NCBI GenBank assembly: GCA_025617745.1
Contig: CM046863.1
Span: 11,019,773 to 11,083,772 of the forward strand
Length of the DNA stretch: 64,000 nt
DNA from: Heliocidaris erythrogramma
Lineage: Eukaryota > Echinodermata > Echinoidea > Camarodonta > Echinometridae
Direction: 5' to 3'
The stretch's first letter is position 1, and the number at the start of each line of letters is the position of its first letter. The notes below the pieces were generated by a model. The model made no database searches and was not told the origin of the DNA. It saw only the letters and a list, made by a program, of their open reading frames with translations. This document shows, piece by piece, positions 8,401-63,850 of this stretch. The position numbers and the translations under genes were made by a program.

Positions 8401-8461
8401 GACCATTGTAAGATTTCAATTCATCATCTGTTAGTTTCCGTGCAAAACCCATCTCTACCAT
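5420..8461 (-). CDS. BEL/Pao polyprotein: RT, RNase H, integrase (uninterrupted frame)
   Basis: A 1,013-codon open frame. Residues 1-280 are reverse transcriptase: CADISKMYH at about 84-92 holds the first catalytic Asp, and YMDD at 163-166 is the active-site box. A connection and RNase H follow, with FFDASLDAFGA, the LELQAA region, VFMTDS and the IADALSRG end motif. The C-terminal third is integrase: an HHCC zinc finger (HEIGHSG through CAVC) and a DDE core with CDYF, ILSDNGTQF and HQNGCAESLV, then a basic C-terminal domain. Such a protein copies element RNA into cDNA and joins it to chromosomes. The frame stays open upstream of the Met for about 15 codons, to the inversion junction. The long intact frame contrasts with the rearranged layout, so the element was young when it inverted. 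It lacks gag and protease in cis. Confidence 0.92.
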   Translation of the reverse strand: MVEMGFARKLTDDELKSYNGPVHYIPHHAVIRPEKKSTPIRIVFNSSARYQGESLNDFWMKGPDLLNTLFGVILRFREKHVGLCADISKMYHRVLIPPSDQQVHRFLWRNLRPDKPPDVYVMKVVTFGDKPAPAMAQTALRRTAEEGRGKYPEAATVISRDTYMDDICTSTETPQDASRLTREIDEILSEGGFKVKGWISNVALDETREQDPDKHVLGDLAEEKVLGAVWNHKQDTFSYRTKVEIKGEGKNLTKRIILSQIAQIFDPIGFTAPFVIRAKTGLQKLWEAGYEWDVVLPDDCQTEWRRFFQEMGKLQEVKLERCLTPNNVAGLPTLCIFFDASLDAFGACAYLRWETINEGYQVRFVAARSRVAPLKQLTVPRLELQAAVLASRLYKTIKDELTINFSDVVFMTDSMIVLAWIKSSAKRYKIFVATRVGEIQSNTDPSQWKHIPGEMNIADALSRGLKADELKGVWQYGPSFLRQPKSKWPVGVNEKPAGVGERLVGIEDEKRKEHSVLVVSQSKEELINCEKFSSWRRLVRVTSNVLKFVEKLKARCRKRGGKTGDETSNTLTPEDLQRGETYLIKAAQTNLKERLEKGQFKALSPFIDNEGIVRVGGRINRAKIAFEVKHPILLPYEAWISTLITRNIHEIGHSGVAVTTGKVRRKYWIVKGHKLAKTIKYRCAVCRAFEHKTETQEMSELPEERLAPKTPPFHFCACDYFKPLTVKMGRNKVTKHYGVIFTCLNTRAVHLELAEDCSTMEFLKILRRFFAIRGQPRMILSDNGTQFVGAERELRAMVQGVSDETLKDFCAEQGTQWKFITPGAPHQNGCAESLVKSCKYALKKAIGEQVLTPFELYTYLLEVANLVNQRPIGRIPTDPDDGTYLCPNDMLLGRASSHVAQGPFRETRNPRHRVELVQRTVDSFWQHWTRDVLPLLTPRRKWNVDRRNICVDDIVMLADANVIRGKWTIARVIEVYPGKDGKVRNIKVKTMNHEYRRPVTKIAVIVPAEGYDT

Positions 8462-8506
8462 TTCTTGGATTTGCTTGTTGTACGCCTCGGCATGTTGTGG
8501 ATTTTT

Positions 8507-8910
8507 TACTATTTATAATTCGATTATACTGCCTTACATTTCATATTGCAACATTGTATTGGGTTGTCAAAAAACTAAATTAATTCATTGTTTCTTCTCC
8601 AAAAAAAGCTGTCCGTATTTGTACCAACTCAGATTATCTTTCACATACGGATCCTTTATTCTATCAGCTACGCACTCTCCCTATTCATGACATACATTAT
8701 CTCCAAACTGCTCTTTTTATATATCGATACCATTCCCGCGAACTTCCCACCAACTTGTTAAGCATGTTCCGTATCAATTCAGATATACACAATTATCCTA
8801 CCCGAATTTCTTCAAATGTGCATTTAGAAAATCCAAGAACAGCCCTTGCCCAACGATCTATTCGACACACTTGTCCCGACCTTTGGAATTCTCTTTCTCT
8901 TAATATTTGA
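8507..8910 (+). pseudogene. Retrotransposon A reverse transcriptase, C-terminal segment
   Basis: It begins FTIYNSIILPYISYCNIV, the standard CR1/L2 motif that follows the thumb region. It ends with a CPDLWNSLSLNI-type tail and a stop near 8910. There is at least one frameshift near 8690. This completes the element whose earlier segment stops at 3860, and shows that the BEL/Pao material between them was inserted. Confidence 0.85.
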
Positions 8911-9734: not shown

Positions 9735-10378
9735 ATCTCTTCTATCTTAACATAGTCTTTCATATCTATCCATGCTTTCAATAGACACTGATAAAAAGTA
9801 GGTAACGTGATTTCCACTGTACCCCTCCAATAATTGCAATAAAATATCAAATTTCCTCCCATCGGTCTCATTAAGCATTTGAAATAAAGTTTCCATTTGA
9901 TGGCTTGAGTTCCTGTTATAAGCCTTTTTAATGCACATTATTCTTTGTGCTTTTACAAAGAACCTAAAATTCATCATTTTGAGCCCACCCTGCTGATAAT
10001 CTAACATCACTCTTTTTTTTAATTTTATCTTTACCTCACCACAAGAAATCAAAGCATATTTCTTCAATTTCCTTATATACCCACTCTGGAACTGACACAA
10101 GTGATGTTGCATATATCAATTTAGAATATCCATATATTTTCATTAATTGAATTTTTCCCATTAAAGTTAAATCACGCTGTTTCCACCACGTCAATAGTTT
10201 TTTAATTTTGCTCAATATTTCCTTAAAATCCATTTTTTCCTTGATGTCTGCATGAACTGAAAAATAAATGCCTAATATTTTTACAACATCTACTAGCTTC
10301 CCAAATGGAAATGTATGCTCAGACACCTGCGGACCCAAAGGCAGAATATATGACAAAGCGATAATTCCACTATCTAAT
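9735..10378 (-). pseudogene. L1/Tx1-like RT C-terminal fragment (minus strand)
   Basis: It encodes a region with FPFGKLVDVVKILGIYFSVH and WWKQRDLTLMGKIQLMK, followed after a frameshift near 10040 by GGLKMMNFRFFVKAQRIM. This is the RT thumb and connection part of L1/Tx1-type elements. It is paralogous to 11400-11900 on the plus strand, but the two protein segments differ at many positions. It is therefore an independent older copy and not the inverted end of the same insertion. Confidence 0.8.
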
Positions 10379-10380
10379 CT

Positions 10381-12243
10381 AACAAGAAAAGGACAAATAT
10401 ACGGAAACTGTCAATAGGAAGTGATATAAGTTTTGATCAATTCGAAATAAAAGCTGAAAATAAACAATTTTATAGTAAGTTATATTCAAAAAGAGAGGAT
10501 AAAGATGTCGATGATAACATTTTATTCCATGATATACCAAGATTATCATTAGAATCGATGAAAGCATGTGAAGGGAAAATTACAGAAGGTGAATGTTTAG
10601 CTGCTTTAAAAGAGATGAAAATGAATAAATCACCAGGAAATGATGGGCTGAGTGCAGAATTTTATATATTGTTTTGGCCGGTGAGTGGGGATGTTTTAGT
10701 TGAAGCTTTAAATAATGCTTTTATTAGAGAAGAACTCTCACCCTCTCAAAGACAAGCAGTTATAACTTTAATTCATAAAGAGGGAAAAGATTCATTACAA
10801 ATTAAAAATTACCGGCCTATCTCATTACTTAATGTAGACTAGAAAATTTTGGCAAAAGTTCTATCAATAAGGATTAAGGAAGTTTTACATGAAATAATCA
10901 AAGTGGATCAGGTGAGATATTTAAAGGGAAGAAATATTGGGGAAGCCATTAGACTTATAGACGATATGATTTATCACACAACAAAACATAATATATCGGC
11001 ATATTTATTGGCTATTGATTTTCAAAAAGCCTTCGATTCAGTGTCACATTGTTTTTTGTACAAAGTATTACAAGCTTTTGGTTTTGGACTTTCGTTTTGC
11101 AAGTGGGTTAAGACCTTGTATAAGAAAGCTGAAAGTTGTGTTTTTAATGCTAATATTTCAACAGGTTACTTTGACTTTAAGAGAGGAGTAAGACAAGGGG
11201 ATCCTTTATCCCCTTATCTTTTTATATTATGTATTGAAATATTAGCTAACAAAATAAGGCTTGAACCAGAAATTCATGGAATAGGTTTGGGGATACAGAA
11301 GTCAAACAAATATTATATGCAGATGATATGACGATTTTTGTTCAAGATGTTTATTCGATTAGGAAGTTAGATAAGCTGTTTTTCGGAAACGTCAGGGTTG
11401 AAAATAAATAAAGATAAAACCTTTATAATGTTATTGGGACCCCATAAAGAAAGTGATTTAGTATTACCCTTCGGCAAAGTAGAGCAGATGGTTAAGATTC
11501 TGGGTATATATTTTTCATTGAATAGAGAAAGTCAAGAAAGAATTAATTATAAAAAAATACTTAGTAAAATAAAGAAAATTTTCACGTGGTGGAAGCAGAG
11601 AGATTTGACGTTAATTGGTAAAATCCAGCTTATTAAAACTTTTGTGCTATCCAAACTAATATATGTTTCTTCACTAACCCTTGTACCGACATGGTTAGTG
11701 GAGGATCTGAACACAGTTATTTTTGATTTCTTATGGGGTGGTAAAGATAAAATCAAGAGAAATAGTGTTTATTTAAATTATGACAGTGGTGGTCTCAAAA
11801 TGACTGATTTTCAATTATTTATCAAGGTGCAAAGAATTATGTGGATTAAAAGGCTTATATTGGGGGATCCAAAGATGAAATGGAAACAATATTTTAGCTA
11901 TTTAGCTCGGAAAGCCGGAGGATTGTTAATAGGTACTTGTATTTTATCGTTTCGTTATAGGGTTCTTGTTTTGTTTGGTTTTTCTTTCTTTTTCCATTCA
12001 CTGAATCAGGGTTAATAGGTACTTGTATTTTATCGGTTCGGTATACGTTATTGAATTTGTAGGTAATCTACAATTTGTATCATGTGATGTAAAATAATTA
12101 ATATGTTTATATTGCGAATGTTCATAATTGTCATATGCATATTATTTTAAAAAGTATGTTAATTAAGGATGCATATTATATATGGTATGTTATGTTTTTC
12201 TTTTGTTCATTGAATGGAAGATAAAAACTTCTTTTAAAAAAAA
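10381..12243 (+). mobile_element. L1/Tx1-like retrotransposon, 5'-truncated, plus strand
   Basis: RT coding starts in mid-protein near 10381 and includes MNKSPGNDGLSAEFY, the YRPISLLN motif, AIDFQKAFDSV (motif A), GVRQGDPLSPYLF (motif B) and, after a frameshift near 11325, a YADDMTIF box and a GLKINKDKT block. Stop codons at 10840 and 11331 and frameshifts make it non-functional. Near 11925 and 12010 the sequence TTAATAGGTACTTGTATTTT occurs twice, a short tandem duplication. The element ends in an A-run at about 12233-12243. L1-type elements insert by nicking DNA and priming reverse transcription at the nick. Confidence 0.85.
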
Positions 12244-13015: not shown

Positions 13016-14024
13016 TTACACCTTGCGTTGTAGGGCGTGTGAAGTGCGTTGACGTAGTCCTTCCCTGCTCTTGCTACTCCCTCCCCACGTTTTCAGAAAC
13101 ACGTGGCGGACGTGGCCTCCGCAGAACACGTACGGACTAAAAACACGGACGGTGGGATGTGACCATGCCTTTACGCTGTCCTTTATTTTCTTCAAACTCC
13201 TTAACCGCTAACCTGTAGAATGCCGGGTAAAGTTATTTGGGGTTAATTTTATACATTCTAACTGTATACAAATTATTATACATTTTTTTTGGCCTCAGAG
13301 ACCCTTTAAACAACAAGAAGAAGAAAACCATTATTGTGATCCAAATGTTTGCACTTTTCTATCACATTAAAATTTAATAAAGGCAACTTTTTAATTGATA
13401 TAAATTGTTGTGACTCAGTTTAACTCGGTCATTCTCGGCTTGATATAGTATTTCTAAAACGGTGTAAAATTATTCATAGGGGCCAGGAAGACAGTCCAGA
13501 TATTCAATATCATCCTCTCTCTCCTCTCTCACTTACTGCGAAGTCGGATTTTCTTAATCCGTGAACATCACTTTTGGAGTAGGTCTGTGAGCAGGGGCAT
13601 TTCCCTGGTATTACGTAAGAGTCTCCTTACGCTGCCACTCAGTGTTGGCGGGCCAGCAGAGGCTATAGAATTATCCTTATAGCCATTCTCACACATATCT
13701 ACAAGATAGATATAATATATACATGTACATTAAAAAGACATAACAATAAGTAACCAAGATTTATAATATTGCGTAGAAAAATACGGTAATGAGGATTAAG
13801 ATATATTCTATATATGCAGGACTACAGGTCAGATTGTAATTTAAAAAACGAACAAAAAAAAAACTGGATCAATAATTAAAATATGGTCAAGTAAGAAATG
13901 TAGAAATTGAAGTATTAGCCTTTTAAGAATAATACATTTAAAACTATCAAGTGATGTTGCATTTTGTAGCCCGTTGGGGAGATCATTTCAAATTATTCCA
14001 CCTGCATACATTAGAGCTTCAATA
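13016..14024. other. No recognised gene
   Basis: The stretch has GC-rich sequence up to about 13150, then ordinary AT-rich DNA. I see no protein family match, no tRNA and no clear terminal inverted repeats. Confidence 0.5.
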
Positions 14025-14381
14025 AAACCAATCTGAAAATAAAGCAAACCGTGAAATAGAGGGGCCCATAGTTTGTTAAATGCTGTCCAAAAATAGTCAC
14101 ACCATATAAGATTTTACCACATGAAATCCATGTTATTCACAAAAGCTGGTCAGCCTGAACGAGATGCCGGGTTTGTTTCCTTTCAACATTGGAATTTCAG
14201 TTGTATAGTGTTAGTGGTGACCTCGAAATTCACGGTAGGTAAACTATAATAAATGCATTTTTTGCAGGCCAATTGAGAGTGTAGGCCGCTCTTGACTCGT
14301 AGTCATGGTATTGAAAAAAATGTCTATTGTCAGAGACCCGAAACAAGCATCTCTATCTCTATATCATTCTTCTCTACCGCC

Positions 14382-14616
14382 AATAGACCTGTTTACTAAG
14401 TGATTCAAATTTTATGCATACTTTTGAAACAAAGGTTGTTCTTGACAACCTGAAAGCTTGCCAGAGGCTTGCCAGACATAGCAACAAGTAATGTATGCAA
14501 ACTGGATTCCAAGTATTGTAGTTCATTCATTAATAACAGGGTAATGGAATACCTCGTTACTAGGTCCCCAGGAAAGAAACATCCATAAATTTGAACACTT
14601 AGTAAACAGGTCTATT
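14382..14616 (+). repeat. MITE family M1, intact copy
   Basis: It is 235 bp long with perfect 20-bp terminal inverted repeats (AATAGACCTGTTTACTAAGT at left). It is non-coding. Other copies in the window are 1048-1525, 19243-19477, 32061-32215 (truncated) and 45490-45719 (opposite orientation). Confidence 0.9.
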
Positions 14617-15084
14617 GATTGTGGGCAGCGACCCGTTTTGGCCCCCGGCGAGAAGCCAGTGTATAAAACCATAGACATATGGGTTAAATGCTTTTTTTTT
14701 TAAATTGTGAATTCACAATGAATTTAATGTATAGAAATACATTTGTAAAAAAACATGCCTGGTTGACAAAGCGTATTAGAGGTCCAATAAAATCAACTTT
14801 AAACAGAGACGAATCGTGGGAAATAGAGGGGCCTTTAGTTTATCAAATGCTGCATACTATACAATTAGCCATGTAGGGCTTGGCACCTGCGTATTTTAAA
14901 GGCGAGGGATGGAAGACGCATGATGTGAAGTATCTTCAAGTAATCAAACCAGTAGCCTATCAATGAATTACACAGATACGCACACACACACACACACACC
15001 CTCACACACTCACCCTCACACACCCATATACACACTCTGTTAACATAGGACTGCATCAGACAAATTAAGTATTATTTCGTTCAA

Positions 15085-15402
15085 TATTCATTTAATGTAT
15101 GCAAATTTTATACATACCTTTCAAACAAAGGTTGTTCTTGACAACCTGAAAGCTTGCCGGACATAACAACAAGTAATGTATGCAAACTGGATTCCAAGCG
15201 TAATTGAGACTCATTTATTTAAAGCAGGTTAATGGAATAGCTCGTCACTAGGTGCTCAGAGAAGAAATGTGCATAAATTTGAATACATGAATACATGAAT
15301 AGACCGGTTCTGTAATGTATTCAAATTTATGCACATTTCTTCTCTGAGCACCTAGTGACGAGCTAACCATTAACCTGCTTTAAATAAATGAGTCTCAACG
15401 CT
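15085..15402. repeat. M1-derived hairpin (copy 1)
   Basis: A diverged M1 sequence runs to about 15300. It is followed at once by an inverted copy of its right part: GAGACTCATTTATTTAAAGC near 15205 is mirrored near 15400. The arms are about 90 bp and the spacer is under 20 bp, making a long hairpin. The same structure is at 19946-20263. Confidence 0.85.
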
Positions 15403-15407
15403 TGTCC

Positions 15408-15980
15408 ATTATTTTTTGGTTTCTCATTTGTTTACTATTGTTTAATGTTGAAATAAGGTAATATCTTTTTAAAAATCTGCAATTTTCTCTGAAATTTCTA
15501 TGGTAGCATATAATAATAAATATATATTTAGAATGCTTGCTTTATGCACACAATTTTTTGATATACATTTACCACCATATACCTTTTCGAGCAATAAGCC
15601 ACTTCGGAGATGCAATCTGAGCATGAGCAGATAAAGGTCATCTGTACCAAATTCTAAAACCCACTGACACTAATATTCGATATGTGCTCATGAATGTCAT
15701 GTAATCATTATTCAATTATGCACTAATGGTGCATTCCATGATATCCAGGTGGAAGTATTCTTTTTAAAGGGGGAAACAAAAGCTATTCATGAGGCACCTC
15801 TATCACTCCCAGAGTTATTTTTCTGAAGTGCACATAAAGGGACCCTCCATGTCTAAAATATCTGTGGATATTTGGGGTCATTTGTACCATGCGCTAACCC
15901 CGAACTGGCTTATTGGTCGAGAATGGCAAGTCTGTCTGTCACACATACGTGACATCGGCACTGAAAGAGTTAATAATTAG
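15408..15980 (+). repeat. Dispersed repeat R, copy 1
   Basis: It runs from TTTTTTGGTTTCTCATTTG to GCACTGAAAGAGTTAATAA and is non-coding. It recurs in the tandem copy (there split by insertions) and at 63275-63850. In the 63-kb copy the central part (corresponding to 15595-15918) is inverted relative to the ends. Confidence 0.85.
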
Positions 15981-16591
15981 TCTCTTTTGCTGTTTGGTTC
16001 ATGTCAACTAGGGACATGGGCACTGGTGTAGACGGGGGGGGGGGCCGGGGGGCCATGCCCCCCCTACTAAAAAAAAACAAAAAACGAGAGCGAGAGCGAA
16101 AAAGCGGGGGAAGTGAGAGAAAAAGCCTAAAAAGGGGCTACAAGCCGTTATGGCTCTCAAAATTTGGTAAAACGTCAAAGTTTTCGCGCTTCGCGCGAGA
16201 AGGGAGGAAATAACTCTCCTCTCCCTGCACCCACCCCAGTTACCATGGGTGTCGATCCGGGGGGGGGGGGGGATGGGGGTATATATAAAAAAAAATGAGG
16301 TGGGGGGATGGCCTGTATTAATTACCCCCCTCCAATATTTTGGGATTATGATACATTAACTTAAAACTAATAATTATCCAAACTCATGATGTTTGATCTT
16401 GAAATACCATCACATTCTTTAATGATTAGAAGTAAGGAAATAAGAAATGCCATAATTTCAATGCGAAAATATCGAAGGAAATTCGTTCACTCGCATCGTT
16501 ATTCTCAATTAAGGATTAATCGACAGTTTTTTGAAAAATTCCCTGATGTAGGAGGGGATACCCCCTCCCACCCCCGCTCGGTCTCTTCGCT

Positions 16592-17387
16592 CAGTGGTGT
16601 ATCTAGGGGCAGGGGGGGGGCACGTGCCCCGTGCAGCACTTGGAGGGGGCGCAAAAAACGCAAAGGAGAGAGAGAAAAATAGGGGGAACTGAATAAAAAT
16701 CATAATCTTTATGGATCACCGCCCCAAATCCGCAGGGTAAATGCACTAGAAATCTAGTTTTTTAAGGTTTGAAATGCGAAAAATTTCCAAAGTTCGTCGC
16801 TTTGCTCCCTCGCATAATTATTTTCTTCAGGATCTTGTAATTTCGCTCCCCCAGTATATAGTTCTTAAATTAGCTTAAAGGGTTCAAAAAGTTTGAAAAA
16901 AGAAAGATGTAATTGCTTTGCTCGCAATCATTGTGTAAGTTTCATATGACTCCTGCTAAATATTGCGCTCCCAATATACTAGGATAAAGTGTATAAAACA
17001 GCATTTGCAAAGCTTCAACTTTTGAAAGAAATCTCAACTTCAGGTCGCCTTGCTGAATTTCTCGACTCTTTCTCAAGCCTATAGGGTTTTGTTAGTTCTA
17101 CTCCCGATTGTAGAAGTGAGTGAATAGAAAACCGTTTATCAATGTATAATATTCGAGCTTCTCTACCGCTCAACTGCGGTGGTCAAATGCAAAATTTTCT
17201 GGGTAAAATACACAAAAAAATGCGTTTGTTAGTGTTAAATATTGAAAATTTTGCCGCTCAGTCGCTTTGCTCCCTTGCTTGTACAATAACATAGATAAGT
17301 TTGGGCACTCGGGGGGGGGGGGGGTGGGGAGGGGGCGCCTAACTTCATTTTTTGCCCCAGGCGCCATAATCCCTAGATACTCCACTG
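16592..17387 (+). mobile_element. hAT-like element nested in the larger hAT element
   Basis: The terminal inverted repeats are CAGTGGTGTATCTAGG and its near-complement CCTAGATACTCCACTG. The flanks TCTTCGCT (16584-16591) and GCTTCGCT (17388-17395) match at 7 of 8 bases, as expected for an aged 8-bp target duplication. It is 796 bp with no protein encoded. In the second tandem copy its left end is deleted. Confidence 0.8.
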
Positions 17388-17393
17388 GCTTCG

Positions 17394-17950
17394 CTCCCTC
17401 GCGTGTGAAATGTTGCGTCCAAATAATTGAAAAGCGGTCCTGGCGTCGAACTATAACTTTCCGCCTACAAAAATTGCTTGTTACAAGCCGTTATCTTTCT
17501 CTCAAATTTGTTAAAACGTCAAAGCTTTCGCGCTTCCCGCGGGAAGGGGGAAACTCCCCTTCCCTTCACCTACCCCTGTTACATACAGTGCAGTTTTGCG
17601 TCCAAAATAACTGAAAAGCGGCCAGGGCGTCGAACTAACATTCCTCCTAAACAAAAAGGGTGCTAAAACGTCAGAGCTTTTGCGCTTCGGGCGGGAATGG
17701 GGAAACTCCTCCTCCCTACACCCACCCTGTTACATACAGTGCAGTATATAATTGTGTCCAAAATAACTGAAAAGGAGCCTGGGCCTCAAACTATAACTTT
17801 CCGCCTAAAAAATGGTTTGCTACATTTATCTTTCTCTCAAATTTACTAAAAAGCGTTTCCCGCGGGAAGGGGGAAACCCCCCCCCCCCCTCCCCCTCCCT
17901 GCACCAACCATGTTACATACAGTGCAGTATTGCCTCCAAATAATTGAAAA
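17394..17950 (+). repeat. Tandem units of about 150-180 bp inside the hAT element, copy 1
   Basis: Units repeat the order GCGTCCAAATAATTGAAAAG, GGCGTCGAACTA, CGCTTCCCGCGGGAAG, TGTTACATACAGTGCAG. About three and a third units lie here. The equivalent array at 23283-23965 has about one more. Copy-number change since duplication points to unequal exchange or slippage. Confidence 0.75.
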
Positions 17951-18277
17951 GCAGCCCTGGGGGATCGTGCTCATCACCAATATCGCACTCTTCGCGTGCC
18001 CCACAACCGCCCCCGCCTAAAATGAAATCCTGGCTATGCGGTTGGATCCTTCACGTCTGGACCCCCCCCCCCCCCTATTGAAAAATCCTGGCTACACCTG
18101 TGGACATGGGTATGGCGGAATGGAAGTCTGAGAATAAAAGGGTTAAACCAAAGAGAGTTTTAGCTGTCCTTTTGCTCTCAAAGGAGGGTTTCCTGCTTAA
18201 AGACAAGTGGCATTCCGTCACGATACATACAATCAACTGAAATCAACGTTTCCATCCCCAAAAATATATGTTACATA

Positions 18278-18800
18278 ATTCAAATTCAAATTCAAATTCG
18301 TATTTATTTCATTTCCAACAGAATGAAAAGACAATGGCATTACAGATATTGTTACAGAATATATGAAAAATATATGTACAAATTCAATTTACCTTGTTAA
18401 GTGTAGAAGTACGCTATACATATAAATACATTATTATAATGAATTATTAATAGAGATTCTTAATTTCTGAGGAAATGTGGGACCCACTACAAAGCAGTGC
18501 TTGTAATTTGTGGATCCCCCAGGGAAAATAAAATTGTTTCAAATTGTGCCTACGAAAACACAAAACAGTGTTACAGAACAACAAACAAACACGAAACGAC
18601 AAGGAAAAGGAAAACAGATAAAAGAAAAAGGAACAGGAAAAAGGGACAATTGGAAAGCAGGACAAATCATCACCGAAAAAGGAGGTAGTTATGTTGGTGA
18701 TTCTGGCAAGTTAAAATCATAAGACCAAATAGAAATTCAGTAAATTGAGCAGATGATGAAGACCCAAATGGAAAAATAAGAAGATACCAGCTGTTATTAG
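18278..18800 (-). mobile_element. Retrotransposon 3' end, minus strand (copy 1)
   Basis: It starts with tandem AATTCAAATTCAAATTC (18278-18300), which is the repetitive tail read on the minus strand. It is followed by 3'-UTR-like sequence. No RT coding is present. In the second tandem copy about 50 bp near 18598 is missing. Confidence 0.55.
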
Positions 18801-19242
18801 GTTATTATTGTATATTACATTATAAGATCTGTACGCGCGCTAATGCACATGGATACTTATTTATGACCATGGTTGTGAAACCATGAAACCAATCTGAAAA
18901 TAAAGCAAACCGTGAAATAGAGGGGCCCATAGTTTGTTAAATGCTGTCCAAAAATAGTCACACCATATAAGATTTTACCACATGATATCCATGTTATTCA
19001 CAAAAGCTGGTCAGCCTGAACGAGATGCCGGGTTTGTTTCCTTTCAACATTGGAATTTCAGTTGTATAGTGTTAGTGGTGACCTCGAAATTCACGGTAGG
19101 TAAACTATAATAAATGCATTTTTTGCAGGCCAATTGAGAGTGTAGGCCGCTCTTGACTCGTAGTCATGGTATTGAAAAAAATGTCTATTGTCAGAGACCC
19201 GAAACAAGCATCTCTATCTCTATATCATTCTTCTCTACCGCC

Positions 19243-19477
19243 AATAGACCTGTTTACTAAGTGATTCAAATTTTATGCATACTTTTGAAACAAAGGTTGT
19301 TCTTGACAACCTGAAAGCTTGCCAGAGGCTTGCCAGACATAGCAACAAGTAATGTATGCAAACTGGATTCCAAGTATTGTAGTTCATTCATTAATAACAG
19401 GGTAATGGAATACCTCGTTACTAGGTCCCCAGGAAAGAAACATCCATAAATTTGAACACTTAGTAAACAGGTCTATT
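19243..19477 (+). repeat. MITE family M1, tandem copy
   Basis: The duplicate of 14382-14616 with the same 20-bp terminal inverted repeats. Confidence 0.9.
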
Positions 19478-19945
19478 GATTGTGGGCAGCGACCCGTTTT
19501 GGCCCCCGGCGAGAAGCCAGTGTATAAAACCATAGACATATGGGTTAAATGCTTTTTTTTTTAAATTGTGAATTCACAATGAATTTAATGTATAGAAATA
19601 CATTTGTAAAAAAACATGCCTGGTTGACAAAGCGTATTAGAGGTCCAATAAAATCAACTTTAAACAGAGACGAATCGTGGGAAATAGAGGGGCCTTTAGT
19701 TTATCAAATGCTGCATACTATACAATTAGCCATGTAGGGCTTGGCACCTGCGTATTTTAAAGGCGAGGGATGGAAGACGCATGATGTGAAGTATCTTCAA
19801 GTAATCAAACCAGTAGTTTATCAATGAATTACACAGATACGCACACACACACACACACACCCTCACATACTCACCCTCACACACCCATATACACACTCTG
19901 TTAACATAGGACTGCATCAGACAAATTAAGTATTATTTCGTTCAA

Positions 19946-20263
19946 TATTCATTTAATGTATGCAAATTTTATACATACCTTTCAAACAAAGGTTGTTCTT
20001 GACAACCTGAAAGCTTGCCGGACATAACAACAAGTAATGTATGCAAACTGGATTCCAAGCGTAATTGAGACTCATTTATTTAAAGCAGGTTAATGGAATA
20101 GCTCGTCACTAGGTGCTCAGAGAAGAAATGTGCATAAATTTGAATACATGAATACATGAATAGACCGGTTCTGTAATGTATTCAAATTTATGCACATTTC
20201 TTCTCTGAGCACCTAGTGACGAGCTAACCATTAACCTGCTTTAAATAAATGAGTCTCAACGCT
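19946..20263. repeat. M1-derived hairpin (copy 2)
   Basis: The duplicate of the hairpin at 15085-15402. The arms and spacer are unchanged by eye. Confidence 0.85.
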
Positions 20264-20534
20264 TGTCCATTATTTTTTGGTTTCTCATTTGTTTACTATT
20301 GTTTAATGTTGAAATAAGGTAATATCTTTTTAAAAATCTGCAATTTTCTCTGAAATTTCTATGGTAGCATATAATAATAAATATAAATTTAGAATGCTTG
20401 ATTTATGCACAAACTTTTTTGATATACATTGACCACCATATACCTTTTCGAGCAATAAGCCACTTCGGAGATGCAATCTGTGCATGAGCAGATAAAGGTC
20501 ATCTGTACCAAATTCTAAAACCCACTGACACTAA

Positions 20535-21066
20535 GAGGCCTTTCACACTCACTTCTGGACCGCTCCAAGTTAGAGCGCTCCAGAGGAACGGTTCTTGAAG
20601 AACGCTTCGTTTGCTTTCACACTCACCGCATTTTTTATGTCTCGAATCGCTCAACGAGTCAAAGTGGTCTTGTTGCTATGGCAGCTCAGATCAGCGGCTC
20701 AAATTTTTCGCGCGGAATTTCAAACCGTATAATGCGCTGTGCCGCTGCCCGGTCGGTGATTGCCTGCGTAGCGTAAAGTAAGGTATCAAATCGCTCGCTC
20801 AATGTATCAAATCACCCATTGATTTCCCGCGCCACACACACTCACTTCCGGTTGAAGTACGCTTTAGGATCGCTTTGCTTTCACACTGACACGTTGGAGC
20901 GCTCTAACGAGGAACCGTTCCTCAAGACCACCTCGCGAGGTGGTCTTCTGGAGCGCTCCAGAAGTACGCTTCCTGGACCACTTGAGCATTCACACTCACC
21001 TGGGAACCGCTCCAGAGGAACCGTTCTTAGTTAGAGCGCTCTAACGAAGTGAGTGTGAAAGGGCTC
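20535..21066. mobile_element. 532-bp MITE with TAA target duplication
   Basis: The ends are inverted repeats GAGGCCTTTCACACTCACTT and (inward from the right) GAGCCCTTTCACACTCACTT, flanked by TAA at 20532-20534 and 21067-21069. The empty site in the tandem copy (15671-15673) has a single TAA, so the boundaries are exact. A 3-bp TWA-type target suggests PIF/Harbinger mobilisation, by inference. The interior repeats GAGCGCTCCAGAGGAACGGT-like motifs in both orientations. A larger relative lies at 33529-35710. Confidence 0.92.
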
Positions 21067-21163
21067 TAATATTCGATATGTGCTCATGAATGTCATGTAA
21101 TCATTATTCAATTATGCACTAATGGTGCATTCCATGATATCCAGGTGGAAGTATTCTTTTTAA

Positions 21164-22096
21164 AGTAGAACGTTAATGATTTTAAATATTGGCTTAATAC
21201 TTATTATTGCATAGATGGCATAAATTAAACAAGGTTATCCAAATTCAACGCTTGGAAACATTTGAAGTAATGATTATTATCAATTATAAAACGGTAAAAT
21301 ACAGCCCCCGATATAGCAGCTGAAGAGCTCCTCGAACGCTGCTGAGATATGTGACGACACACCCTGGACCAGTCCTGTCTAAGCAGACGATGTCCCATAA
21401 CATCTTACACATTTTTCAGAGCCTATTTTGTCATCTCCTCTTCACTTATTTCTCTTCCTTCACTAGCGTCAGTCTTAATGTTAGTCTGTTGCCTCACTCT
21501 TAACTTCGTGTATGGTATTATTTTGATGAAAAATGCAGCGTTAAAAAAATAAAGGAATCAGTCACTTGTAAACAAAATAAGACGCCATTGTATTTTCAGC
21601 TGCTTGCACCGGGCCATGTTCGGCGTTTCAAGAGGGAACGAATACCATCCTGCTATTATTCGGAGGGCTTTTCAATTTGAAAGTGGGGTTTATTTCATTG
21701 ATCATTGACCCTTCTCCTATGTATTTACAATCAAACGGTTTTAGCTATCAGAATCAGTTTCACTTTCCCTTTATAATGGTGTGAAATAAGGTCATGTTTA
21801 AATACACCAAACTCTTTATAATTTCATAAATAATTGCATTGCAAATTACGTTCATTCATTATAGGACGTCGTCTGCTTAAGCAGGATCGATCCCGTCTGT
21901 GACGACATAAAAACATCGCTATATTTCTGGCGAATCCTCGGATATTCCAGATGCTGAGAAGAGCTTTTATTTGTGTTGTTTTTATAATCACCAGATACGC
22001 AGTTGACATAAAACTTATACGATTGCCATCTGTAAGCTTCCCAGTTTCTAGTGATACATTAATTGCCATATTTGTGATTTTCTTTGAATATCTACT
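21164..22096. mobile_element. 933-bp element inserted at TTAA
   Basis: It is flanked by TTAA (21160-21163 and 22097-22100), while the tandem copy has one TTAA at the empty site. The terminal inverted repeat is short (AGTAGA...TCTACT). Internally, the sequence near 21350-21395 is an imperfect inverted repeat of 21865-21906 (CGTCTGCTTA shared). TTAA duplication is characteristic of piggyBac-type transposition. A 7-bp TTTAAAG duplication is an alternative reading. There is no transposase frame. Confidence 0.85.
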
Positions 22097-22353
22097 TTAA
22101 AGGGGGAAACAAAAGCTATTCATGAGGCACCTCTATCACTCCCAGAGTTATTTTTCTGAAGTGCACATAAAGGGACCCTCCATGTCTAAAATATCTGTGG
22201 ATATTTGGGGTCATTTGTACCATGCGCTAACCCCGAACTGGCTTATTGGTCGAGAATGGCAAGTCTGTCTGTCACACATACGTGACATCGGCACTGAAAG
22301 AGTTAATAATTAGTCTCTTTTGCTGTTTGGTTCATGTCAACTAGGGACATGGG

Positions 22354-24115
22354 CACTGGCGTAGACAGGGGGCACCGGGGGCCATGCCCCCCCCCCCCCC
22401 CCATTTAAAAAAAAAAGCGAGAGCGAGAGCGAAAAGGCGGGGGAAGTGAGAGAAAAAGCCTAAAAAGGGGCTACAAGCCGTTATATGGCTCTTACAATTT
22501 GATAAAACGTCAAAGTTTGGCACGTGCCCCGTGCAGCACTTGGAGGGGGCGCAAAAAACGCAAAGGAGAGAAAGAAAAATAGGGGGAACTGAATAAAAAT
22601 CATAATCTTTATGGATCACCGCCCCAAATCCGCAGGGTAAATGCACTAGAAATCTAGTTTTTTAAGGTTTGAAATGCGAAAAATTTCCAAAGTTCGTCGC
22701 TTTGCTCCCTCGCATAATTATTTTCTTCAGGATCTTGTAATTTCACTCCCCCAGTATATAGTTCTTAAATAGCTTAAAGGGTTCAAAAAGTTTGAAAAAA
22801 GAAAGATGTAATTGCTTTGCTCGCAATCATTGTGTAAGTTTCATATGACTCCTGCTAACTATTGCGCTCCCAATATACTAGGATAAAGTGTATAAAACAG
22901 CATTTGCAAACTTTTGAAAGAAATCTCAACTTCAGGTCGCCTTGCTGAATTTCTCGACTCTTTCTCAAGCCTATAGGGTTTTGTTAGTTCTGCTCCCGAT
23001 TGTAGAAGTGAGTGAATAGAAAACCGTTTATCAATATATAATATTCGAGCTTCTCTACCGCTTAACTGCGGTGGTCAAATGCAAAATTTTCTGGGTAAAA
23101 TACACAAGAAAATGCGTTTGTTAGTGTTAAATATTGAAAAATTTGCCGCTCAGTCGCTTTGCTCCCTCGCTTGTACAATAACATAGATAGGTTTGGGCAC
23201 TCGGGGGGGGGGGGGGGGGAGGGGGCGCCTAACTTCATGTTTTGCCCCGAGCGCCATATCCCTAGATACGCCACTGGCTTCGCTCCCTCGCGTGTGAAAT
23301 GTTGCGTCCAAATAATTGAAAAGCGGTCCTGGCGTCGAACTATAACTTTCCACCTACAAAAAAAAATCTTTCTCTCAAATTTGTTAAAACGTCAGAGCTT
23401 TCACGCTTCCCGCGGGAAGGCGGAAACTCCCCTTCCCTTCACCTACCCCTGTTACATACAGTGCAGTTTTGCGTCCAAAATAACTGAAAAGCGGCCAGGG
23501 CGTCGAACTAACATTCCGCGTAAACAAAAAGCGTGCTAAAACGTCAGAGCTTTTGCGCTTCGCGCGGGAATGGGGAAACTCTTCCTCCCTACACCCACCC
23601 CTGTTACATACAGTGCAGTATATAATTGTGTCCAAAATAACTGAAAAGCAGCCAGGGCCTCAAACTATAACTTTCCGCCTAAAAAATTGTTTGCTACATT
23701 TATCTTTCTCTCACATTTGCTAAAAAACGTTTCCCGCGGGAAGGGGGAAACTCCCCCCCCCCCCCCCCCCTCCCTGCACCAACCATGTTACATACAGTGC
23801 AGCATTGCGTCCAAATAATTGAAAAGCAGCCAGGGCGTCGAACTAACTTTCCGCCTGGAAAAAAAAGTGCTACGAGCCGTTATCTTTCTCTCAGATTTGC
23901 TGTAAAACGTAAGAGCTTTCGCGCTACGCGCGGGAGGGGGGAAACTCCCCTTCGCTGCACCCACCCCCTGGGGGATCGTGCTCATCACCAATATCGCACT
24001 CTTCGCGTGGCCCACAACCGCCCCCGCCTAAAATGAAATCCTGTCTACGCGGTTGGATCCTTCACGTCTGGACCCCCCCCCCCCCCCCCTTTGAAAAATC
24101 ATGGCTACGCCTGTG
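22354..24115 (+). mobile_element. hAT-like element, copy 2 (1.76 kb, deleted)
   Basis: The same element as 16021-18102 with the same GACATGGG flanks (22346-22353 and 24116-24123). A deletion joins the region near 22517 to sequence that lies about 440 bp further on in copy 1. It removes the left end of the nested hAT, whose right end survives at 23276. Confidence 0.85.
23283..23965 (+). repeat. Tandem units inside hAT element, copy 2
   Basis: About four and a third units of the 150-180 bp repeat described at 17394-17950. TGTTACATACAGTGCAG occurs near 23451, 23607 and 23787. Confidence 0.75.
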
Positions 24116-24843
24116 GACATGGGTATGGCGGAGTGGAAGTCTGAGAATAAAAGGGTTAAACCAAAGAGAGTTTTAGCTGTCCTTTTGCTCTCAAAGGAGG
24201 GATTCCTGCTTAAAGACAAGTGGCATTCCGTCACGATTCATACAATAAACTGAAATCAACGTTTCCTTCCCCAAAAATATATGTTACATAATTCAAATTC
24301 AAATTCAAATTCGTATTTATTTCATTTCCAACAGAATGAAAAGACAATGGCATTACAGATATTGTTACAGAATATATGAAAAATATATGTACAAATTCAA
24401 TTTACCTTGTTAAGTGTAGAAGTACGCTATACATATAAATACATTATTATAATGAATTATTAATAGAGATTCTTAATTTCTGAGGAAATGTGGGACCCAC
24501 TACAAAGCAGTGCTTGTAATTTGTGGATCCCCCAGGGAAAATAAAATTGTTTCAAATTGTGCCTACGAAAACACAAAACAGTGTTACAGAACAACAACAG
24601 GAAAAAGGGACAATTGGAAAGCAGGACAAATCATCACCGAAAAAGGAGGTAGTTATGTTGGTGATTCTGGCAAGTTAAAATCATAAGACCAAATAGAAAT
24701 TCAGTAAATTGAGCAGATGATGAAGACCCAAATGGAAAAATAAGAAGATACCAGCTGTTATTAGGTTATTATTGTATATTACATTATAAGATCTGTACGC
24801 GCGCTAATGCACATGGATACTTATTTATGACCATGGTTGTGAA

Positions 24844-25839
24844 TAAGTCCAGCTTCTGCCTCATGACTGATTTATATAACATGTACCTTGATATTTAATA
24901 TGGCTTAAACTCGTATTTCTCATTGATAATACACCAGATGTTTGATGATACTTTGATACATTTTTTTTACTTGTTGTCTGAATACTTTTCCCATGTTTAT
25001 GATATTAATTCTATCAATCTACTGATAGATTTTATATCATTTATATTATTGATAAATGCAATTATTGTCACATTATGATGCATATACATGTACTGTTATA
25101 GATACTTGGGCCTATAGTAAATATCAAATATCATTGATAGACTTTGGACAATATTGGACCTGTTTATCTTACAGCTCGAGCCAATGCCTGTTATGCCGCC
25201 CCCCCCCCCCCCCCCCAACTCGGAGGTCGAAGGGACCGCATGCGTGTTCCCAAAATCTCCGGTAAAGGGGTACTTTTTGGGCGACACAATCCTGCCCGTG
25301 AATTGTAAAAAAAGGGGGTGTTTTTTAACTTTCACCCGGAGATTTCATTAAAAAAGGGGGTGTTTTTCTTTCTCTCTCTCTCTCTCTCTCTCTTCGACAC
25401 CTGAGAAATTAAAAAAGGGGGGTTATGAAATATCTTGAAAAATTGATCAAATCCCAGGATCAAATTCCTGAAATTCCTGCTAGTTTTGATAGCTCATTCT
25501 TGGGAGGGGGGTTGGTGTCTGTCCTGAGATATGGGGTTGGAATGAGAGCTCACCTGAGATAGGGGGGTACATTGAGCAGTGTTCTGAATTTAGGGGGGTC
25601 TCCAAGGCAGGAAAAGCCCGCGCAAAGCCCGCGATAGGGGGGTTCAGAAATTTTGGCAGCCCTGAGATAGGGGGGTGCTTTCAAAGGGAGGGAACAAGCA
25701 TACGCGTACCCTAAATAATACTGAGTGGGGGGGGGGGGGGCGGCGGGCTGTTCTGCTGATACTATAGCCTTATTCACTGTACCCATTCTAACCATTGGAT
25801 ACTTCCTCACAAATGCAATAGGACAATTTGGTACTGGAT
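24844..25839. other. No gene; simple repeats and G/C runs
   Basis: Single-copy AT-rich DNA to about 25190, then a C run (about 25198-25216), (TC)n near 25368-25393 and a decayed array with CCTGAGATAGGGGGG-type units at about 25500-25680. A G run lies at about 25726-25741. Open frames here are low complexity. Confidence 0.6.
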
Positions 25840-25929: not shown

Positions 25930-26225
25930 GAAATCTCCTTGTCATGTGTGCAAAGTTGCTTGTTTGTGGGGTGAGAGGGCAGTATGCTGTGATGGATGTC
26001 AGTGCTGTATATAGAGAGAGTCTGGCCAACTCGGTTTCAGTAGGGTAGCAACATGGCGTATATTCCTTTGTTATGTAAAGCTTGCATCTATATATATACG
26101 GCACTGATGGATGTGACGAATGGTATCATGTTGATTGCATGGGAATGAATACAGTGTGTTATGATGCATTGGTTCAACATGATTCGATATCATGGACATG
26201 CTGCTTGTGTGGCTTACCAAATTTT
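25930..26225 (+). pseudogene. PHD-type zinc finger, split by a 114-bp insertion
   Basis: The first half encodes CHVCKVACLWGERAVCCDGC (ending about 26000). The second half encodes DGCDEWYHVDC and SWTCCLCGLP (26108-26225), giving the Cys4-His-Cys3 pattern of a PHD finger. The 26001-26114 segment between them carries stops. It is bounded by direct repeats of TGATGGATGT (25991-26000 and 26105-26114). PHD fingers bind histone tails, and in retrotransposons they may help target chromatin (inference). Confidence 0.75.
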
Positions 26226-26439
26226 TCATCTAGCCTTTTTACAGCTTCTACCTCAAACAGATCGGCCCCTAATAACAGTGACTGTATTAATCCTGCTTCT
26301 AGTAACTTATCATGTACAGATGATGGCAAAAAACTGTTTAATACACCGTTTGCAACTTCCTCACCACGTGCGGATACTGCACGACAAAAGGCTAACTCAA
26401 AAAGTCAGAAGTGTCTGACTACTGGTAGGGATTATAAAC

Positions 26440-27140
26440 CACTAAAGGTTTTAGTGGTGAATTTCCAGAGTATCAGAAACAAGGTGGCAGATTTGCATAT
26501 GTGTCTAGAGTTTGATAATCCCGATATATTATTGGGAACTGAAACATGGCTACATAAATCTGTGAGTAGTAGCGAGATATTTCCAAGCAACTATATTGTT
26601 TATCGTAATGATAGAGATCCAAACAGTAAGGGCCAGGCATATGGCGGTGTGTTGATTGCCGTTAAAAACAACATTACCTGTGCCTAAAGGTATGACCTAG
26701 GGTCAGAAAACGAAAGTGTATGGATTGAGATTGAAATACATGGAGCCAAGTTAGTCCTAGTAGGAAGTTTTTACAGACCCCCAAACACGGATAAGGAATA
26801 TTTGGCTACTTTTAAGAACTCAATAGATAAGATTAACGTAGATCACTACAGTAATATCTGGATGGGTGGTGATTTTAACCTAGGTGACATCATATGGGAT
26901 TCACAAACAGGATCACAGAAGGTTACAATGTGTAGGGACTTTATTGATATGATTAATGATTGTGGTCTCGAGCAGATTGTTACAGAACCAACTCGAGGGG
27001 ATAATATCCTTGATTTATTTTTCATCAAGAATCCTTCTCTAGTCATTAGATCCTCAATTGTACCAGGACTCAGTGATCATGATGGCATCCCCATGATACT
27101 CACAAACACCAAGCCCTTGCTTAGTAGACACAAACCAAGG
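26440..27140 (+). pseudogene. APE-type endonuclease of retrotransposon B
   Basis: Visible blocks are VVNFQSIRNKV, ILLGTETWL (catalytic Glu), YGGVLIAV, VGSFYRPPN, WMGGDFNL (catalytic Asp/Asn) and GLSDHDGI (catalytic Asp-His). A TAA at 26685 interrupts it; the frame continues afterwards. The enzyme would nick target DNA to prime reverse transcription. Confidence 0.88.
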
Positions 27141-27159
27141 AAAGTCTTTCAGTATAACA

Positions 27160-28517
27160 GAAAAGTTGAAGGAGGTTGTGGGTAACATAAGTCAAGACAT
27201 TCTGGCTCATCAGGTACAGGGGGAAACAGGTTCAGTTGAAAAAGTGTGGAATACCTTCAAAGAGAAATTACACAAAGGTGTTGATGAGACTGTCCCGTCT
27301 AAGATGGTGGGCAAAAAGAACTTCGCCCCTTGGATAAACCAGTCCATCAAGAGATTACATAAACGTAAACAAAGGGCCTACAACAAGGCAAATAAAACAG
27401 GGAAGCCAGATGACTGGGAAGTGTATAAGAAGCTTAGAAAAGAAATCAAAAGCAAAACAAGAAAAACACATAGGTAATAATGTACAGGGTAAATGTAAGG
27501 AGTCAGCCAAGCAATTTTGGTCATTCATTAAGTCACTAAGAAAAGACTCGATGGAGATCCCAGCTCTAAAAGACAAAATCACTGGCGAGCTGATAACTGA
27601 TAGTAAAAAAAAGCAAATTTGTCAAATAGACAATATCAAGAACAATTCACAAAGGAAAGACTTCAAGATGTACCAAGGCCCCAAGAGTCTGACATAGCCT
27701 CTATGCCTGATATTGAGATTAATGTAGCAGGTGGTACTAAATTGTCCCACAAAGCTACAGGTCCTGATGAAATATCTCCTTGGGTCCAACGGCAAACAGC
27801 AGAGGAAGTAGCCCCTGCACTAACGAGCATATTTCAATTATCTCTCTCAACAGGTGAAATCCCAGAGGACTGGCGCCGAGCAAATATTACCCCAATATTT
27901 AAGAAAGGGGACAAAGCAGACCCCTCCAATTACAGATCAATAAACCTCACCTCAGTTTGCAGTAAAGTAATGGAAAACATTATCTATACTAACATTATGT
28001 TTCACTTAGATAGTCATGGAATCCTGAACGAGCACCAGCACTAACCGCAAACAAAGGGTTGTTGTTGAAGGGGAGCAATCAGAATGGGTGACAGTGGAAT
28101 CGGGCGTCCCCCAGGGTACAGTTACCAGACCTTTGTACTTTCTCATATTTATTAATGACTTGCCTAACATATTGAAGTCCACCTGCCGCTTATTTGCTGA
28201 TGACTGCATCATCTATGACCAAGTGTCTATCATGGTAGATGCACAGAAGGTGCAAAAAGACCTGGATAGACTAGCAGAATGGCAGGCAAGATGGCAGATG
28301 GATCTCAATGCCAAGAAATGTCATGTATTACACATAACCCACTCCAGAAATCCAGTGAAATACCAATACACACTTAATAACTCCCCACTCCCAGAGTCAA
28401 AATCTCGCAAATATCTAGGAGTCGACATCTCTAACGACTTGACCTGGAATGTACACGTCGATAAAATATGTGCAAAGGCTAACAAATCTCTTGGTTTTAT
28501 ACGCAGGAACCTTTTTG
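27160..28517 (+). pseudogene. Reverse transcriptase of retrotransposon B, left part, motif A deleted
   Basis: A basic linker (INQSIKRLHKRKQRAYNKAN) leads to RT blocks KATGPDEISPWV, WRRANITPIFKKGDKADP and YRSINLTSVCSKVMENII. The frame then stops at GILNEHQH (28041). Sequence resumes at the region before motif B (ESGVPQGTVT) and FADDCIIY. The residues that should carry the motif A aspartate are absent, so this RT was dead even before it was split at 28517. Confidence 0.88.
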
Positions 28518-31500
28518 ACTAGAAATGATGTCTTTATATTAGAAATGATATTGCATCTAACGTACGAGAAGATCTTACACAAAATGATATTGAATCGTTA
28601 TGGATTGACATTCTATTACCCCATACAAAACCCATTACTCTAGGTGTTGTGTACACACCCCTTACAGATCATTATTTTATTGAATATCTCACTGACACCT
28701 TGGATAAATTAACAAAAGATGATGAGGTTATAATTTTAGGGGACGTGAATATCTGTCTTCATTATCAAAAAAATACAAGAATATTTTGAATTTAAATGGT
28801 TTGAGTCAACTTATAACTAAACCCACTCGAACAACATCGGCCACTTCATCATTAATAGACCATGTAATCAGCAGTAAAGAAGAAAATATTTGTCAAAGTG
28901 GTGTTATTGAAATTGGCCTAAGTGATCATTTTTTAACCTACTGCTCTAGGAAGCTTATAAGACCTGAATTCAGACAGCATAGAAATATAAATATTCGGTG
29001 TATGAGAAACTATTGTATAGATGATTTTAATAATGTTTTATCTCAAGTCAATTGGTCTGACATATTAGAATGTAAAGAAGTAAATACTGCGTGGTCAATT
29101 TTCAAAAATATTTTCATGTCTATATAGTTGATAAATGTGCTCCATTAAAACAAGTAAGAATTAAGCAAAGAACCGATAAGTGGAGGAATGCTGAAATTAT
29201 GCCGTTAATAAGACAAATATAGCTTTTAAAAGAATGAAAAAGGATTATGGTAATTTAGAATTAGAAAAGAAATATAAACTTTTACGTAATTTGGTGCAAA
29301 GAAAAGTGAGACAGGCTAAAGATGAATACTTCCAAAATCAAATTGATGAGCATAAAAATGATTCTAAAAAGTTGTGGAAGAATCTGAAAGATTTAGGTTG
29401 TAAAAACAAACAAAAGAATATTAAAGAGAATGTTATTAATATCCAAGGGGAGTTATGTCATGATAATTATGAGGATAACGAACGAATTTAACAATTGTTT
29501 CACAACTGTGGCAGAAAAATTAGCTAGTAATCTGCCAGATAGCAACACTAATGAATTTGGAACGGACAGTGTTAAATTACAAAAATTATACGACAGTAAG
29601 GGTGTATCGAAAAGTTGTTTTCTTTTTTCTCCTGTCAAAGAAAAGTTTGTTTTAGATGAATTAAATGAGTTGAAAATATCAAAAAGTACCGGGCTTGACT
29701 TGGTACCTGCCAGATTTTTGAAGGATGGAGCTAAATATTTGTATAAACCTTTAACTTACATTATTAACTTATCTATCTCAACTTCCACCTTCCCTGATGA
29801 AATGAAAATTGCAAAAGTAACACCCCTTTATAAAAAGAAAGATAAAACTAATGTTAGCAATTATAGACCGATTAGCGTTTTAAGTATAGTCTCGAAGGTC
29901 CTGTAAAAATTTGTGTATGCCCGATTAGAGAACTACTTTCAAGAAAACAACATAATATACGAATTTCAATCTGGTTTTAGAAATGGTTATTCCACTGAAA
30001 CTTGCCTTATTCACCTGGTAGATTTTGTCAGGAACGAAATTTCCCACGGATGTTTTGTCGGGATGGTTCTTCTTGACTTGCAAAAAGCCTTCGATACCGT
30101 TAACCATAATATACTGTTAAGTAAATTAGAAGTAATTGGTTTAAATTCTGCATGTGTGCAATGGTTTAGGTCTTACTTGACCAATCGTCATCAAGTTGTC
30201 TCGTTGCAAAATGTACTCTCCGATTCTATGCCCATAAGATGCGGACTTCCCCAGGGGAGCATATTAGGTCCCATTCTTTTCATGTGCTACATTAATGATA
30301 TGTGTGTTTGTGTCGACGACAGTAAATTACTTTTATATGCAGATGATAGTGTGTTACTATATTCTGGTACTGATCCTAAGCTGATCGGGGAAAAACTTAG
30401 CTTAGAATTATCAAACTGTGTTAATTGGATGACAGCAAAACCGAAAGTATTTTGTTTTGTTCGCGGGGTAGGTTGAAGTATACTGATGATTTCAATATAA
30501 GTTATAACAATCAACTCATTAAGAGACAGGATTCTGTGAAGTATTTAGGACTAAATATAGCTAGTGATCTTTCTTGCTCAAGTTTGGTTGACAGTATTGT
30601 CAAAAAAGCGTCTAAAATTTTTGTATCGTTAATTATCAAAATTGCATGAACTTAAAATCAAGACGCATAAATTTAAAGTTTTTCCTTAATACAATATTTA
30701 TTTGATTATGCTAATGCGGCATGGTACTGCAGTCTAGGCAAGGTGGATCAAAACAAGTTAAAAAGATTGTAAGATTTATCAATCACTTACCACCAAGAAC
30801 ACACATTGGGAAGAGTGAACTTGAAACAGCTGGTCTTCTTCATATAAACCTTAGATCACAACAACTTTTAATTCACAATGTACATAAGATTTTTTACTCT
30901 AATGCAGATCACTATATTTCAAATAATTTTACTCGCTCTTCAAGTGTTCATGGGCATGACACTAGAAATAGTCAATTTAATTTCGTAGTGCCTAAGCGGA
31001 AAGGTAAAATTGGAAATTCCTTTTATTGTAACGGTATTCTTTTCTGGAATTCCCTCCCAAATCATGTTAAGTCAGTTAAGATTTTTTTTTACATTTTAAA
31101 AGGGTATTGAATCATCATCTGAAAAATGTTTCTACTCCATAACTGTATTTCTCCTCTCTTTTTTGTAGCTCAGAGGGTTTTTCCTATATTATATGACTTA
31201 TGTAACCAACGTTTATTATCGATAGTTTCATTATGATTTTCTCTATATAGTTTTTTTTCCGTTGAGTAAGTCTTGTTTTCACATTTATGTAATCTTCGCC
31301 TACTTTATAAAAATGTTATGTTTTATTTTGCTACTTTAGTACATTCTTGTCGCACTTGTACGATAGTCTTGTAGCCGTACTAATGTGTTTTCTTAGTGTA
31401 TTTTTTAATCAGTTATTTAGGTAAGGACCCCATTGGAAATAAGCCATTTCGGCTTTCATGGGCTATCCTGTCATGGTACCTCGACGTGTTTGTATTGCAA

Positions 31501-63274: not shown

Positions 63275-63850
63275 TTTTTGTTTCTCATTTGTTTACTATT
63301 GTTTGATGTTGAAATTTGGTAATATCCTTTTAAAAATCTGCAATTTGCTCAGAAAACTCATGGTAACATATAATTATAATCATATATTTAGAATACTTGA
63401 TTTATGCTCAAAATTCTGATATATATATTGGCCACCATATACCTTTCCTGTGGTCGAGCAATTGGTCTATCTGTTACATATATGTGACATCAGCACTGAC
63501 AGAGTTAATAAAAATGCTCAGGGAATCAATAAGCCAGTTCGGGGTTAGCGCATGGTACAAATGACCCCAAATATCCACAGATATTTTAGACATGGAGGGT
63601 CCCTTTATGTGCACTTCAGAAAACTAACTCTGGGAGTGATAGAGGTGCCTCATGAATAGCTTTTGTTTCCCCCTTTAAAAAGAATACTTCCACCTGGATA
63701 TCATGCAATGCACCATTAGTGCATAATTGAATAATGATACATGACATTCATGAGCACATATCGAATATTAGTGTCAGTGGGTTTTAGAATTTGGTACAGA
63801 TGACCTTTATCTGCTCATGCTCAGATTGCATCCCCGAAGTGGCTTATGAT
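63275..63850. repeat. Dispersed repeat R, copy 3, with inverted core
   Basis: The outer parts (GTTTCTCATTTGTTTACTA; TGACATCAGCACTGACAGAG) run in the same direction as 15408-15980. The core (63520-63850) matches 15595-15918 in reverse complement. Confidence 0.85.

Follow-up and report, generated by a model that had tools for sequence, protein, structure and literature searches.

Two neighbouring copies of one DNA segment, of which only one carries certain transposon insertions, raise the question of whether the duplication can date the insertions, and whether its own age can be read from the similarity of the copies. Such a pair lies in the genome of the sea urchin Heliocidaris erythrogramma, within a stretch of 64,000 nucleotides (the window; C11:11019773-11083772 of the 1.064 Gb, in 26 contigs, that were searched). 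The first-pass annotation of this stretch proposed a recent tandem duplication followed by the insertion of two miniature inverted-repeat transposable elements (MITEs), here called E1 and E2, into the second copy, and suggested a self-alignment as a check. The self-alignment confirmed two adjacent copies, arranged head to tail with an offset of 4861 (Table 1); as far as the assembly goes, the duplication is genuine. However, the differences between the copies are distributed in a way that does not support a recent origin of the whole duplication, and suggest that E1 and E2 date the block into which they inserted rather than the duplication itself.

After filtering, copy 1 and copy 2 differed at 55 of 4173 sites (37 of the 92 mismatches were dropped, 35 of them in the ambiguously aligned interval 16027-16195 and two beside the C-run at 18076-18077). 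Divergence was bimodal, with 4 mismatches in 2474 sites in what we call the quiet blocks and 51 in 1699 in the loud blocks, whose limits were set after the mismatches had been seen. Permutation tests are independent of these limits: none of 5000 permutations reached the length of the longest mismatch-free run (830 sites), and none reached the Kolmogorov-Smirnov deviation. The copies had been described as almost identical, which is true only as an average, since the blocks run from 0% to 6%. Within the loud block both copies have private mutations. Five mismatches lie within 46 bp at 15525-15570, in near-identical surroundings, with derived changes on both copies, and over the longer patch 15525-15620 three changes are derived on each copy when judged against three relatives. 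Three of the four quiet differences in the left part could be polarised, all derived in copy 2; the relatives used there include overlapping locus records counted twice, and among the 10 left-hand differences site 15007 is unpolarised because two alignments disagree, and site 15570 is mixed among relatives. The combination of mosaic divergence with private mutations on both sides suggests that different parts of the copies separated at different times.

Table 1. Features of the duplicated segment, self-alignment matches and mismatch counts between the copies (window positions; mismatches as mismatched/compared sites).
Feature	Position	Strand	Description
Copy 1	14025-18879	+	4855 bp; left flank ancestral
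Junction filler	18880-18885	+	6 bases; present in direct and inverted form in the adjacent copy-1 end
Copy 2	18886-24843	+	5958 bp including insertions and deletions
E0	15592-15916, ends approximate		apparently young MITE in both copies; carries E1 and E2 in copy 2
E1	20535-21066	+	MITE, 532 bp; TAA target repeat 20532-20534 / 21067-21069
E2	21164-22096	+	933 bp, putatively non-autonomous Kolobok-like; TTAA target repeat 21160-21163 / 22097-22100; ends AGTAGA.../...TCTACT
E3	14382-14617 (copy 2: 19243-19478)		short inverted-repeat MITE; many genome copies at 97-99%
E4	15204-15398 (copy 2: 20065-20259)		palindromic MITE-like element in both copies
E5	16020-18104, ends approximate	+	dispersed high-copy repeat with internal satellite of ~150 bp; most of the loud block
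Direct match	14022-15673 / 18883-20534		99.3%
Direct match	15763-16183 / 22096-22518		93.7%
Direct match	16619-17956 / 22519-23831		95.4%
Direct match	17955-18584 / 23966-24597		97.8%
Direct match	18611-18879 / 24575-24843		97.4%
Segment absent from copy 2	16184-16618 (copy 1)		~435 bp; found in other E5 copies
Segment absent from copy 2	18583-18631 (copy 1)		~49 bp; AACA-type bases common to both ends
Mismatches	14027-15524		4/1498
Mismatches	15525-15620		6/96
Mismatches	15621-16020		0/400
Mismatches	successive loud blocks, last ending 18254		10/682, 25/638, 10/283
Mismatches	after 18254		0/576

The MITEs common to both copies point the same way. E0 occupies the same site in both, with one difference in 324 sites. 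Over the 755 sites of E0, E3 and E4 the loud rate would predict 22.7 mismatches, and 1 was seen (site 15620, the sole mismatch in E0, belongs to the loud sites in the block counts). Among the best 40 of 531 candidates scored, 34 of the 39 other listed genome copies of E0 were given as 100% identical to that of copy 1 and the rest as 98-99%, which makes E0 appear much younger than a split of 3%. Since E0 looks very young and yet has one and the same location in the two copies, and since MITE divergence is low, the quiet blocks share a later ancestor than E5.

E5 itself, for which a first look found 11,532 candidates in the genome, allowed the direction of change to be judged. The interval 16619-18584 contains 47 mismatches, 34 of which were judged where one to five of five fetched relatives align, the other 13 being without a relative; the relatives had been chosen from the search matches for high identity. 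Seventeen differences were derived in copy 2 and 14 in copy 1, two were present in both states and one in neither. Derived changes are thus even between the copies (p = 0.72), which seem to have been apart longer in E5 than elsewhere. Other genomic copies are unlikely to have converted E5 ectopically, with only two of the 34 differences in both states among the five relatives, and with copy 2 the best-scoring relative of copy 1 among the matches listed. Two E5 places on another contig, C20:13646325 and C20:13722935, lie about 77 kb apart and have the same match pattern, which suggests another recent duplication.

If the first-pass model of one recent duplication followed by E1 and E2 were kept, the divergence of E5 would have to reflect a higher mutation rate. 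The ends and MITE-bearing parts of the copies, which hold the quiet sites, fit that model, as does the near coincidence of the loud block with E5. It needs, however, a rate difference of about 19-fold; CpG transitions make up five of the 31 polarised changes, which does not support CpG-driven hypermutation; and loud sites also lie beyond E5, at 15525-15570 and 18120-18254. We consider this model rather improbable.

The structural differences between the copies also exceed those first described, which were one deletion and satellite number apart from the insertions. The satellite difference stands, copy 2 being longer by about 136 bp after 23829, and copy 2 has two sizeable deletions (~435 and ~49 bp). 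Four E5-search matches cover the longer segment (C4:41872633, C3:37003601, C4:42226284 and C11:580992), which is therefore most likely a loss from copy 2. When bases 14025-15025 were used as a 1001-base query, full-length matches were found only at copy 1 and copy 2 (40 of 2318 candidates scored).

The joint between the copies could be placed by comparison with relatives of the left part. All four fetched loci, represented by six locus records of which two pairs overlap, align through the left edge of copy 1, starting at 13710, 13717, 13930 and 14010 (the last extends only 15 bases beyond the edge), and their alignments to copy 2 begin only at 18883 or 18886. The copy-1 flank is therefore ancestral and 18880-18885 is the new joint, set within an old repeat rather than at the end of a transposon. 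That the 4.86-kb unit was transposed as a single element was rejected, because its left edge is inside a repeat that continues through at other loci. For the right edge there was no outgroup: matches of the query 24500-25700 to other scored places all began at 25196 or later. The joint is without long homology, in support of the non-homologous mechanism first proposed, with the correction that six extra bases separate the copies. This filler occurs directly and inverted within the preceding 30 bases, and is absent from the sequence that each breakpoint lost. A 7-bp inverted match lies alongside; by chance, a 7-mer would have such a match within 20 bp with a probability of 0.4%, and the 6-mer within 30 bp on either side with a probability of 4.8%. 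As far as a single joint can indicate, filler and joint would suit polymerase-theta end joining.

Mosaic divergence could also arise if the copies were two alleles, brought together when repair synthesis used the homologous chromosome in place of the sister, so that a real tandem duplication joined two haplotypes, or placed end to end by the assembler. The insertion differences, the ~435-bp deletion and the satellite number can resemble those between two haplotypes of a polymorphic species, and so can a divergence that alternates between 0% and at least 3% over 4.8 kb, accompanied by private changes in each copy. Under this explanation E1, E2 and the deletions may predate the duplication. Against its artefact form, neither the window nor four control blocks of 50 kb each (200 kb in all) contain any N, and the joint is gapless with a templated-looking filler. 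Recent head-to-tail duplications also occur elsewhere, though much shorter: among control repeats of at least 300 bp there were three, of 331-353 bp and at least 98% identity, plus several more diverged, and no direct repeats of at least 1 kb. The event is large for its kind, but not strange. We regard an allelic origin as a serious possibility, if not the leading one.

With respect to the insertions, the clean boundaries and the TAA and TTAA target repeats reported for E1 and E2 proved exact, and copy 1 has a single TAA and a single TTAA at the corresponding positions. This supports the use of copy 1 as the empty allele, and a further E0 copy, at 63527-63847 on the reverse strand (98.8% identical), is empty too, but at a different locus. 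Copy 1 might instead be a post-excision allele, with E1 and E2 duplicated along with the segment and then precisely lost. TTAA elements of the piggyBac kind excise seamlessly, and copy 1 has a mutational history of its own; two independent excisions, both of them precise and about 100 bp from each other, would be needed, however, and the E0 at the other locus lacks the insertions as well. We find this very improbable.

The block around the insertions shows no mismatch in 400 sites and was possibly reset by conversion or by allelic descent, so that the duplication is not dated by E1 and E2, which are younger than the last common ancestor of that block and not necessarily younger than the duplication. 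A substitution clock gave 2 changes in 1464 inserted sites (one branch) and 4 in 4948 quiet-block sites (two branches), and with p = 0.63 yields no order of insertion relative to the quiet-block split. The earlier statement that both MITE families must have been active after the duplication can be kept as regards recent activity, but not as regards the required order.

Our preferred explanation, held tentatively and short of even confidence but ahead of the allelic one, is an older end-joined tandem duplication whose flanks were later homogenised by gene conversion, followed by insertion of E1 and E2 into copy 2. A repeat-rich 4.86-kb segment would have been duplicated in tandem by end joining, perhaps of the polymerase-theta type and acting on an over-extended repair intermediate. 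This duplication would be older than it looks, since E5 in mid-copy retains a divergence of about 3%, with private mutations in each copy. Conversion between the neighbours could then have homogenised the flanks that hold E3, E4 and the young E0, and may have stalled at E5 owing to its deletion and satellite differences. E1 and E2 would have entered copy-2 E0 last, an order that is shown only for their 400-bp block.

Several points weigh against this explanation. Two haplotypes of a polymorphic species would yield the same mosaic, the loud block roughly coincides with E5, for which a specific mutation rate is possible, and the block limits were drawn with the mismatches already in view. E0 has older members (98.8% at 63527-63847, 86.4% in L076), so its youth depends on the best-scoring copies, and the five clustered mismatches at 15525-15570 fit no model neatly. 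If conversion did act, the locus preserves a moved MITE, E0, and a blocked tract, E5, and records the order duplication, MITE insertion, conversion and second-wave insertions. A possible generalisation, which we put forward with some doubt, is that conversion, in place of transposition, can carry new transposon insertions from one tandem neighbour to the other, and that an old repeat between them blocks conversion. The average identity of a 4.9-kb pair with blocks ~19-fold apart in divergence is in any case a poor clock for a duplication. Together with its inserted families, the duplication is ordinary in kind and useful in detail.

The families of the two insertions were sampled from their best matches. 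E1 begins with GAGGCCTTTCACAC and ends with GTGTGAAAGGGCTC, and equals the 552-bp family majority except for a 20-bp internal deletion. Perfect 3-bp target repeats flank 15 of 21 elements (one of 20 loci, L051, was dropped for want of a right end); they read TAA or TTA in seven, ATA in four, TAG in two, and ATG and TCG in one each. PIF/Harbinger elements have a 3-bp TWA target repeat, and with repeats as varied as these E1 is no more than a possible member. Two E1 copies on C1, L041 and L050, about 388 kb apart, share the same 15 right-hand bases and have similar left-hand ones (15 bases were compared per side), and the target may be repeated. At L037, L038 and L045, successive E1 ends in head-to-tail order are separated by a 3-bp spacer, which means that the element forms pairs.

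E2 has TTAA on both sides in all 21 copies (20 from best matches and the window's), and AGTAGA...TCTACT beside it in all 21, the ends having been located by those bases without asking for TTAA. Nine of the 20 best-matching fetched copies agree with the 932-bp family majority at every position, and a further three, L018, L022 and L025, are identical to one another; the window copy differs by two substitutions and one inserted base that are particular to it, and by one variant that other copies have too. The 33-base left end with TTAA occurs exactly 1174 times (579 forward, 595 reverse; reversed control 0), a count that does not show element lengths. If E2 belongs to the Kolobok superfamily, it would be moved by the Kolobok DDD/E transposase of an autonomous relative that has the same ends. 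Two copies in the control sequence share 98.4% and 97.4% identity with that of the window, so that the family has older members too. Both families look very young and are probably still moving, and the dispersed identical 932-bp copies make insertion polymorphism directly testable. A search for literature on sea urchin MITEs with TTAA, and on Zator with Harbinger, found none. Kolobok elements have TTAA target repeats and, by the rule given in PMC9587614, 5'-RR...YY-3' termini, unlike piggyBac. E2 fits Kolobok by its TTAA and 5'-AG...CT-3' (PMC9587614, PMC6004289).

Elsewhere in the window, a ~43-copy array of a 20-bp satellite unit (ACCCTTACTGTGTACCTTTC) occupies 40577-41430. An open frame at 5420-8512 on the reverse strand (1030 amino acids) resembles, by eye, a BEL/Pao-type retrotransposon polyprotein, and forward-strand frames at 10378-12015, 26079-28522 and 28726-31110 are by eye what we take to be interrupted reverse transcriptases of retrotransposons without long terminal repeats. 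No matches came from a Pfam scan of five of the window's frames or from an Rfam scan of the whole window.

The locus can be compared with three known systems. In concerted evolution, tandem duplicates are homogenised by gene conversion; here, similarly, near-identical blocks alternate with older diverged ones, although the copies may instead be allelic. Like the Xenopus T2-MITEs of the Kolobok group (PMC6004289, PMC9587614), E2 has TTAA in 21 of 21 copies and termini of the RR/YY form, but its ends share only the short stretch AGTAGA. Finally, a study of Caenorhabditis elegans helq-1 mutants describes tandem duplications of ~100 bp-10 kb, with a median of ~1 kb and occasional templated insertions, ascribed to theta-mediated joining where synthesis-dependent repair had failed (PMC8654963). 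The present duplication is likewise head to tail, falls within that range at 4.86 kb, and has a joint with no long homology and a short insert matching adjacent sequence. In contrast to those duplications, it is a single natural event, is above their median, and has a filler match that is short and could be due to chance.

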